Origin: Pseudodesulfovibrio portus
GTDB lineage: Bacteria > Desulfobacterota > Desulfovibrionia > Desulfovibrionales > Desulfovibrionaceae
Direction: 5' to 3'
DNA length: 64,000 bases
NCBI RefSeq assembly: GCF_026000375.1
Contig: NZ_AP026708.1
Location: forward strand, 1,614,501 to 1,678,500
The translations under genes were made by a program, and so were the position numbers. This document shows positions 17,225-35,629 of this stretch, in pieces (position 1 is the stretch's first letter; each line of letters opens with the position of its first letter). The notes under the pieces were generated by a model. It was not told where the DNA came from, did not search any database, and saw only the letters and a program-made list of their open reading frames with translations.

Positions 17225-17270
17225 CACATGGGTCGCCTCAAGCGGCGGGCCTTTAAAGGCAGTAATGAAT

Positions 17271-17296
17271 GACCGCCCAAGGGGCGGTCTTTTTTT
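17271..17296 (+). terminator. Terminator of the PfkB gene, inside element A
   Basis: GACCGCCC pairs with GGGCGGTC around a short AAG loop, followed by TTTTTTT. Confidence 0.9.
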
Positions 17297-17864
17297 GTCG
17301 GGAGAGGGATATTCCAGGGTTGGAAGAGTTGTGGGCGCATTCGCGTTGTACGTTTATCGTTCTCCTTTCATCGTGTTCCGCCCCTCGGCGGCCCTATTTT
17401 TGGCTGACGCCCCAAAAATAGGGGAAAAAGGGCGCTTTCGGGGTAGCTCGCGCTGTCAGGCCCAAAAGCCTGTAGGCGACTTTGTTGCCCGTCTGCAAAC
17501 TTGTCTGCGGCAAGGTCGACGGGCTGCGCAAGTCGCCCGGAACAGGCTCTACGGCCTGCCAACGATTGTCTTCTGCGACCGCCTACCCCTGCCATCTCCA
17601 ACAGGTGCACCCGTTGAAGACGCTCGCACGAGTAATCGCAGGGCAACCCCGCCCTTGATCGCGGCCTAGAAGCCGACAGCGAGGAGCGGCGGCTCCCATA
17701 AGGAAATACGTGTTCCTCGCCATGGCCTTCACCCTTCTGCAGGCACAACGCGTCCCAATCCCCACGGATGGGAGCCGATCCGAGCTGATCGGATTCTTGC
17801 CGCGATCTTGGGGGCGGCCAAGCTGGAAAAGCGCACTTTTTGCTTACTTTTTGGTGCGCCAGCC

Positions 17865-17946
17865 ACAAATCCGCAGGACAGCGGATTTGGAGCGCGCCTG
17901 GCAAGGCGCGACCCCGAAGGGGTGAGGGCCATGGACGGCCCGAATC
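17865..17946. repeat. 82-bp insertion specific to element copy A
   Basis: Compared with copy B, these 82 bp sit in the apical loop of the GCTTACTTTTT/AAAAAGTAAGC hairpin. The insert itself contains several stem-loops (AAATCCGC/GCGGATTT; GCGCGCC/GGCGCG; CCCC/GGGG; GGGCC/GGCCC). Confidence 0.75.
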
Positions 17947-18116
17947 AAAAAGTAAGCCGCTGTAAAAGCGGAACACAACGCGGGGAGGACGAAAAAACTA
18001 AAACGCGAATGCGCCGACATCTTTCTTCCCAGCGCCGAAGGCGCTTCTCTCAAAAAAAAAGGCCGCCCCTTGGGCGGCCAACATTTCGCTTTTAAAGGCC
18101 CGCTGCTCGAAGCGAC

Positions 18117-34821: not shown

Positions 34822-35629
34822 TCGCTTCGAGCAGCGGGCCTTCAAAGCCGACAATGATGGCCGCCCACAGGGCGGCCTTTTCTTTGAAGGAAAGCGCCTT
34901 TGGCGCTGGGGAATGTGGAATGTGCGCGCATTCGCGTTCAGCGTCCGGCGTTCTCCCTTCATCGTGTTCCGCCACACGGCGGCCCTATTTTTGGCTGGCG
35001 CCCCAAAAATAGGGGAAAAAGGGCGCTTTTGGGGTTAGCTCGCGCTGGAAGGCCCAAGAGCCTGTAGGCAACTTTGCTGCCCGTCTGCAAACTTGCCCAT
35101 GGCAAGGTCGACGGGCTGCGCAAGTCGCCCGGAACAGGCTCTAAGGCCTGCCAACGATTGTCTTCTGCGACCGCCTACCCCTGCCATCTCCAACAGGTGC
35201 ACCCATTGAAGACGCTCGCACGAGTAATCGCAGGGCAACCCCGCCTTGATCGCGGCCTAGAAGCCGACAGCGAGGGACGGCGGCTCCCAAAACGCAGTAC
35301 GTACGCCTAACCAGGGCCAACATCTCCCTGGACAATCAACGCCAGCCAGCCCCCTCGGATGGGAGCCGTCCCGAGCTGATCGGATTCTTCCCGCGATCTT
35401 GGGGCGGCCGCGCTACAAAGCGCACTTTTTGCTTACTTTTTGGTGCGCCAGCCAAAAAGTCAGCCGCTGTAAAAGCGGAACACGATGTAAGGATGACGAA
35501 CACCGCCGAACGCGAATGCGCTAATACTTCACTTTCCTTCCCTGCGCCAAAGGCGCTTCTCTCAAAAAAAAGGCCGCCCTTGTGGGCGGCCAACATTTTC
35601 GGTTTTAAAGGCCCGCTGCTCGAAGCGGC
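34822..35629. repeat. Giant palindromic intergenic element, copy B
   Basis: An 808-bp relative of copy A in the same orientation, filling the gap between rimO and the convergent serS. The arms start TCGCTTCGAGCAGCGGGCC on the left and its complement on the right, each followed inward by a GGCCGCCC/GGGCGGCC terminator, AAGCGCCTTTGGCGC, GCGCATTCGCGTT and GTGTTCCGC blocks. Internal helices match copy A (CCCTATTTTTGG/CCAAAAATAGGG; GCTTACTTTTTGG/CCAAAAAGTCAGC; GATCGCGG/CCGCGATC; CGGCTCCCA/TGGGAGCCG). The core 35040-35290 is nearly identical to 17450-17700. It lacks the 82-bp loop insert of copy A. Confidence 0.88.

Follow-up and report, generated by a model that had tools for sequence, protein, structure and literature searches.

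The window analysed here is the whole 64-kb stretch of DNA at positions 1614501-1678500 of the Pseudodesulfovibrio portus genome (G000; 3.40 Mb, one contig). It contains two copies of a palindromic, composite intergenic repeat, A (17231-18116) and B (34822-35629). Genes that neighbour copies of this repeat include those that we take, from their protein sequences, to be pfkB, serS, rimO, dinB and rpsI. The features of the two copies, in window coordinates, are as follows.

A, 17231..17334, no strand: outer left arm with terminator; hairpin 17271-17289 followed by a T tract on the + strand; common to B
A, 17335..17347, no strand: left terminal inverted repeat GCGCATTCGCGTT, from the genome-wide site search
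A, 17373..17435, + strand: left arm hairpins (GTTCCGC..GCGGC; CCCTATTTTTGG..CCAAAAATAGGG), terminator-like on the + strand
A, 17448..17565, - strand (the strand modelled): left folded module, covered by covariance model R1
A, 17641..17825, - strand: right folded module, from aligned relatives and covariation
A, 17831..17976, - strand: right arm hairpins, terminator-like on the - strand, with an insert of ~82 bp near 17865-17946
A, 18002..18014, no strand: right terminal inverted repeat, from the genome-wide site search
A, 18015..18116, no strand: outer right arm with terminator; hairpin 18061-18079 on the - strand
B, 34822..34925, no strand: outer left arm with terminator; hairpin 34859-34877 on the + strand
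B, 34926..34938, no strand: left terminal inverted repeat, from the genome-wide site search
B, 35040..35157, - strand: left folded module
B, 35232..35416, - strand: right folded module, from the right-module alignment
B, 35509..35521, no strand: right terminal inverted repeat, from the genome-wide site search
B, 35522..35629, no strand: outer right arm with terminator; hairpin 35572-35591 on the - strand

The two copies aligned along their full extent (A 3-884 against B 1-806) at 77.5% over 888 columns, and none of 50 letter-shuffled versions of B matched A at 1e-5, which bears out the whole-length kinship proposed in an earlier note on this DNA. That note had also described inverted arms of ~230 bp, each with its own terminator; inverted repeats in A and a terminator-like hairpin in each outer arm were indeed found, and the inverted repeats of A measure ~171 bp at 73.6%. 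B could be aligned with its own reverse complement along almost the full length (65%). The outer-arm hairpins have eight pairs each and point inward (A, 17271 on the + strand and 18079 on the - strand; B, 34859 on the + strand and 35591 on the - strand). In all, five terminator-like sites were counted in the A region and five in the B region, and shuffled sequences held only somewhat fewer (2.4 ± 1.9 and 1.6 ± 1.6, respectively).

A search of the P. portus genome with A as the BLAST query gave 52 matches. The genome holds 14 full copies, so that the description of the repeat as a two-copy element was wrong. All 14 are bounded by the 13-bp terminal inverted repeat GCGCATTCGCGTT, which is inverted at the two ends. 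With at most one mismatch this sequence has 35 sites in the genome, 28 of them exact, as against three for the reversed control; the two ends of each of the 14 copies account for 28 of these sites (27 exact and one mismatched), and the rest are one exact solo end at 1254537 and six scattered one-mismatch sites. The full copies lie at 1297358, 1300443, 1369445, 1433598, 1539670, 1631835 (A), 1649426 (B), 1706811, 2206948, 2239443, 2348192, 2604648, 2676595 and 2774604, measure 596-824 bp between the ends and have a GC content of 0.57-0.61. The ends of copy 2206948 are kept and its interior is rearranged; the ~82-bp insert in the right arm of A is absent from some copies, and the P. portus copies that were read hold no tandem modules.

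Beyond the ends, the flanks of many copies are inverted again and finish in terminator-like tails. The outermost ~105 bp is common to A and B, and 8 of the 12 other copies have an arm with a different motif there. The 14-base flank motif GCGGGNNTGATCGC has nine sites in the genome (reversed control, none), eight of which lie at the ends of eight different copies; therefore, an outer arm is part of at least those copies. A 67-bp piece adjoining copy 1300443 also matches the arm of A. Outside the exact 13 bp, the two terminal arms of a copy are only modestly alike (0.66; 2000 re-pairings had a mean of 0.577 and reached 0.657 at most), and G-U and A-C occur there in similar numbers (29 and 30).

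The possibility that the repeat encodes a protein was examined and rejected. Four open reading frames of A and B had no Pfam match, and no shared frame was seen; among the P. portus copies the length differences are non-multiples of three, and the longest open stretch (90-209 aa) varies in frame and strand. These results, together with the compensatory changes in both folded modules described below, uphold the view that structure rather than protein is conserved, and the suspected non-autonomous nature of the repeat, now known as multi-copy, is likewise supported. No match to a known RNA family was obtained in Rfam over the window (best score of A, 25.7 bits against a cut-off of 51.4). A scan for sigma-70-like promoters detected none in either copy, so the earlier suggestion of a large ncRNA rests on the fold and a moderate strand asymmetry of wobble pairs.

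To describe the fold, a left-module alignment (A1; 30 of 32 listed references, from nine genomes) and a right-module alignment (A2; 31 of 36 listed references) were made. The covariation analysis that the earlier note had proposed gave a strong signal in both, with changes on both sides in 16 of 30 pairs of the left module and in 7 of 25 pairs of the right module, many of whose pairs are invariant. For the 30 left-module sequences, covariation was 0.371, compared with 0.160 ± 0.011 in shuffled columns and at most 0.083 with slid partners; 96.0% of cells were paired against 84.0%, and both sides had changed in 115 cells against 39, none of 500 shuffles reaching any of the three observed values. 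Further pair types (33 against 33.9, reached by 394 of 500 shuffles) were not above the shuffles. The larger sets behaved likewise: in 88 left-module sequences 22 of 44 pairs were compensated, with a covariation of 0.115 against a shuffle maximum of 0.026, and in 98 right-module sequences 11 of 27 pairs, with 0.082 against 0.022, although cells are not independent events because sequences of one genome are related. The larger left set was taken from 162 sequences that included both strands of the palindrome, of which the 88 in one orientation were kept and 72 opposite and 2 mixed ones removed; the pattern limits of the larger right set admit 6 of the 13 P. portus copies with a right module in the normal place. 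The five helices listed in the earlier note are present by inspection and all lie within these two covarying modules, and the outer part of helix 17657/17800 is poorly paired in relatives (WC 0.54-0.67, three columns). The modules also contain the conserved motifs AGAGCCTGT/ACAGGCTCT, GATCGGATTCT and AGAAGCYGAC..CGGCGGCTC.

Wobble pairs in the larger sets were used to compare the two strands. An A-C mispair in the + orientation of A is a G-U pair on the opposite strand, and A-C outnumbered G-U by 136 to 39 cells in the left module and 67 to 27 in the right one, or, by columns, by 20 to 7 and 10 to 6 (30 to 13 together). Shuffled columns also gave an A-C excess (276 to 157 and 109 to 75), the plain difference being reached by 500 of 500 shuffles on the left and 28 of 500 on the right, so that it can fairly be said only that, as a fraction of the shuffled number, wobbles are scarcer on the + strand (0.25 on the left, 0.36 on the right) than on the - strand (0.49 and 0.61, respectively). 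The unpaired columns, a thin control for mutation bias, gave G>A 4 in 3 columns and C>T 54 in 5 for the left module, and G>A 307 in 34 columns and C>T 127 in 17 for the right module. Taken together, this is moderate evidence that selection acts on the fold of the strand opposite the + orientation of A, a reading that would hold for RNA and single-stranded DNA alike.

Relatives were then compared, as the earlier note had also advised. With the inner unit as BLAST query, 29 of 60 genomes matched, including P. portus, all of one genus. A module pattern allowing up to three mismatches matched nine of the 348 genomes that represent the order, each of them among the 36 of the genus; right-module pattern matches numbered 40 in G032, 22 in G009 and one in G002. 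Model R1, built for the left module from 30 sequences and 119 positions, matched 18 of the 36 genus genomes and none of the 312 others in the order, a count in which diverged left modules could be missed because no more than ten candidates per genome were scored, with strict filters. The number of modules per element varies: G017 has 2.9 copies of the left module in tandem inside one element (364 bp), G009 has four right modules in tandem inside one element (366-379 bp), and of four G032 elements that were read, one contains two left modules, another contains four and the remaining two lack them. The repeat-covered stretches at the 40 loci of G032 range from ~0.2 to 2.5 kb. A 29-base exact pattern had no match in the named genome collection, and no element was seen by eye in ~1.5 kb behind serS in Pseudodesulfovibrio sp. 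MAG6 (SerRS 79%) and Salidesulfovibrio brasiliensis (76%). These two are the closest named relatives by SerRS, which makes Pseudodesulfovibrio or a neighbouring genus the probable identity of the genus that carries the repeat. A plasmid or phage origin was discounted after two collections gave no match. None of the titles and abstract openings listed in literature searches concerned this family, several of these searches having matched more papers than were among those listed. In the same genomic material, no SSU rRNA (RF00177) was detected in the nearly complete genomes G000, G032, G009, G028, G024, G034, G002, G012, G018 and G001, where it is probably masked.

The repeat was then compared with known classes. 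BOX elements of Streptococcus are boxA-boxB(n)-boxC composites with a predicted stem-loop fold, over-represented between convergent genes, with other versions in S. suis (PMC3049150). The present repeat is likewise a composite non-coding repeat that has internal modules of varying tandem copy number (G017, G009, G032), a predicted stem-loop fold and a preference for convergent genes. Unlike BOX, it has a GC content of 0.60, terminator arms on both sides and two distinct modules, each of which is capable of forming arrays, the two kinds of element being likened by description. BOX elements are much shorter than the P. portus repeat, and their hosts belong to another phylum. REP sequences and BIMEs are palindromic, composite and intergenic, mostly between convergent or unidirectional genes, with proposed topological or RNA roles, and the REP unit is 20-40 bp (PMC3733652). 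The P. portus repeat shares these traits except for its size of at least 0.6 kb. A link to RAYT was rejected: the Y1 HUH transposase (PF01797) had no match in P. portus or G032, 17 of the 36 genus genomes have some, and its presence in 10 of 18 genomes with the left module and 7 of 18 without it gives no association across the genus, a further difference from REP/BIME systems with RAYT. The earlier comparison with MITEs failed on three traits. By the defining traits given in PMC3049150, the repeat resembles MITEs in its terminal inverted repeats (14 pairs, one end with one mismatch), high degree of pairing, multiple copies and lack of detected coding capacity, but it is not AT-rich, no target-site duplication was seen at the 14 copies (longest direct flank repeat 2 nt in four of them, none in ten), and no longer unit bounded by GCGCATTCGCGTT ends, such as a partner transposon, was found in the P. 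portus genome. By analogy, the repeat appears to operate as BOX elements or BIMEs do, at a greater size, and it is classed with neither group.

Gene directions, called by a codon-usage heuristic, revealed that 9 of the 14 P. portus copies lie in convergent gaps, three between co-directional genes and two in unclear settings. In G032, 18 loci were convergent, 15 co-directional and two divergent, 5 of 40 not being callable; the corresponding numbers were 3, 3 and 1 in G009 (two of nine loci gave no call, and a convergent share of 3 of 7 carries little weight) and 5, 2 and 1 in G028 (1 of 9 not callable; scored with the model of G009). Among background gaps of at least 100 bp, 13 of 112 in P. portus, 21 of 129 in G032 and 24 of 119 in G009 were convergent. 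The preference for convergent gaps and the inward-facing terminator-like hairpins thus agree with what had been claimed from the window. Two-way termination is the likeliest direct effect, because terminators face inward on both sides; mobility, a transcript and a topological role are putative.

The copies are also unevenly placed on the chromosome. In six genomes, chosen for contiguity and hits from the 18 matched by R1, 94 of 100 loci (merged within 6 kb) fell in the half centred on parS: 12 of 13 in P. portus, 34 of 37 in G032, 9 of 9 in G009 and, among the matches listed, 13 of 13 in G028, 13 of 13 in G024 and 13 of 15 in G034, the lengths of G024 and G034 being rounded. Each genome gave p <= 0.0024 against a uniform spread, a null other than the distribution of core genes or convergent gaps, and an origin bias of core genes may explain part of the bias of the element. 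The count leaves out the solo end 1254537 (inside the half), short pieces, for example 832743 (outside) and 2794152, and the second-subfamily copies 2310343 (inside), 2841068 and 2855099 (just outside). A single parS pair lies at 1.919 Mb in P. portus, 0.606 Mb in G032 and 0.005 Mb in G009, and one pair was also found in G028, G024 and G034. In 20-kb samples, a few of them out of order, the GC skew switched from minus to plus at 1.89-2.04 Mb in P. portus, near 0.4-0.6 Mb in G032 and at 3.5-0.2 Mb in G009. Clustering at the terminus, taken as the antipode of dnaA, was ruled out, since parS, with GC skew in these three genomes, places the origin ~1.2-1.4 Mb from dnaA. A fixed orientation relative to replication was likewise rejected, the same sense being shared by 8 of 9 loci in G009 but by 19 of the 40 G032 hits and 9 of the 14 P. 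portus copies. As a separate observation, the P. portus parS pair (1919232-1919283) and GC-skew switch lie ~1.16 Mb from dnaA (3083093, 3.083 Mb), and the parS-dnaA distance is ~1.2-1.4 Mb in G032, G009, G028, G024 and G034 as well.

To compare insertion sites, proteins neighbouring the P. portus copies were searched by tblastn against 63 element-bearing stretches of G032, G028, G009, G017 and G006. For 10 of the 14 copies an element adjoins an orthologue-like gene in another genome, a count that is one-sided because only element-bearing stretches were searched. Both neighbours matched for 1297358, 1369445, 1649426 and 2676595, and one for 1433598, 1539670, 1631835, 2239443, 2348192 (57% identity) and 2604648; left out were 1300443 (its left neighbour is present in one G017 element-bearing stretch, with another gene in between), 1706811, 2206948 (52%, paralogue-like) and 2774604. 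At the pfkB-like site of A, R1 matched 7 of 30 genus loci (P. portus, G025, G009, G024, G035, G034 and G006) and had no match in the other 23 within the stretch examined; of these, by eye among the matches listed, G032 has a right module there and G017 an apparent remnant.

The sequences themselves group by species. In the right-module tree (FastTree), clades were formed by 39 of 39 sequences of G032, 22 of 22 of G009, 11 of 11 of G028, 6 of 6 of P. portus and 5 of 5 of G006, and no clade by G021, by G024 (with its near relative G035) or by the second P. portus subfamily. This subfamily consists of L246, L247 and L248 at 2310343, 2841068 and 2855099, which with the rearranged copy 2206948 form no single clade. 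In nine comparisons, paralogues of P. portus copies had a mean identity of 77-83% and copies of other species at the same site 49-60%. Orientation, compared by hand at 13 site pairs, was kept in seven and flipped in six, which is not predicted by plain vertical inheritance. This leaves two accounts: sequence exchange among dispersed copies, with inversion possible between the arms, or repeated entry of species-specific families into the same gaps.

The family very probably belongs to the composite structured repeats of the BOX-like kind. Our preferred reading, with a probability of about 0.6, is a BOX-like composite structured non-coding repeat that is homogenised within each genome and acts at least as a two-way terminator. 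Its unit runs from a terminator arm through the 13-bp terminal inverted repeat, a hairpin arm, the left module and a variable spacer to the right module, which is followed by a second hairpin arm, the other terminal inverted repeat and a second terminator arm. The folded form of the strand opposite the + orientation of A, as RNA or single-stranded DNA, would be the target of recognition or selection. Within each genome the copies would keep replacing one another, by ectopic conversion or by re-insertion at old sites, leading to species-specific sequences while the sites persist, and the element would stop transcription entering from both sides. Clustering by species and free orientation at shared sites would also be expected if species-specific mobile repeats, for which terminators are possible targets, had inserted independently into the same hot-spot gaps rather than being homogenised at old sites; this is possible but doubtful, given that neither a target duplication nor an empty-site junction was found, and that 23 of 30 genus loci at the site of A give no R1 match in the stretch examined, with the right module and the apparent remnant seen there in G032 and G017.

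An insulator or nucleoid element selected by the host, kept in convergent gaps of the origin half, where it would halt transcription running together and ease supercoiling, is an unlikely account. The 94 of 100 loci in the half defined by the parS pair (and by GC skew in three genomes), the convergent fractions of 9/14 in P. portus and 18/35 called loci in G032 against their backgrounds, the inward terminator-like hairpins in outer and inner arms and the sites common to several species all argue for it; against it speak the 18 of 36 genus genomes without a left-module match, the uneven right-module hits (G032 40, G002 one), the free orientation and the P. portus copies in co-directional (three) or unclear (two) settings. 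On this account the element would perhaps act by binding gyrase, a condensin or another nucleoid protein, as has been proposed for BIMEs. It is quite unlikely that these properties combine in an origin-domain system, with sites kept for function and sequences kept uniform in each genome by ongoing exchange among dispersed copies, as concerted evolution of a non-coding repeat, that insulates or organises the origin-proximal half. Very unlikely is a large functional ncRNA family in which each copy is an RNA gene on the strand opposite the + orientation of A: the strong compensatory changes, conserved motifs and wobble asymmetry between strands would suit it, but the core is shielded by terminators on either side, the modules vary in number and order (copy 2206948 being rearranged), and the promoter scan and Rfam search gave no sigma-70-like site or family. 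The homogenised BOX-like repeat preferred here would extend the interspersed repeats of bacteria by a large structured family with strong covariation. Its species-specific sequences at shared sites and its origin-side bias raise two questions testable in one genus, namely how dispersed bacterial repeats stay uniform and whether repeats between genes contribute to the organisation of a chromosomal domain.

A related sequence was also observed at ~2794.1-2794.5 kb of the P. portus genome (L067 3577-4029), where a tandem array comprises 2.9 identical units of 154 bp. Each unit contains a stretch of ~70 bp that is 85% like part of the right-arm insert of A and, by eye, a terminator-like hairpin.
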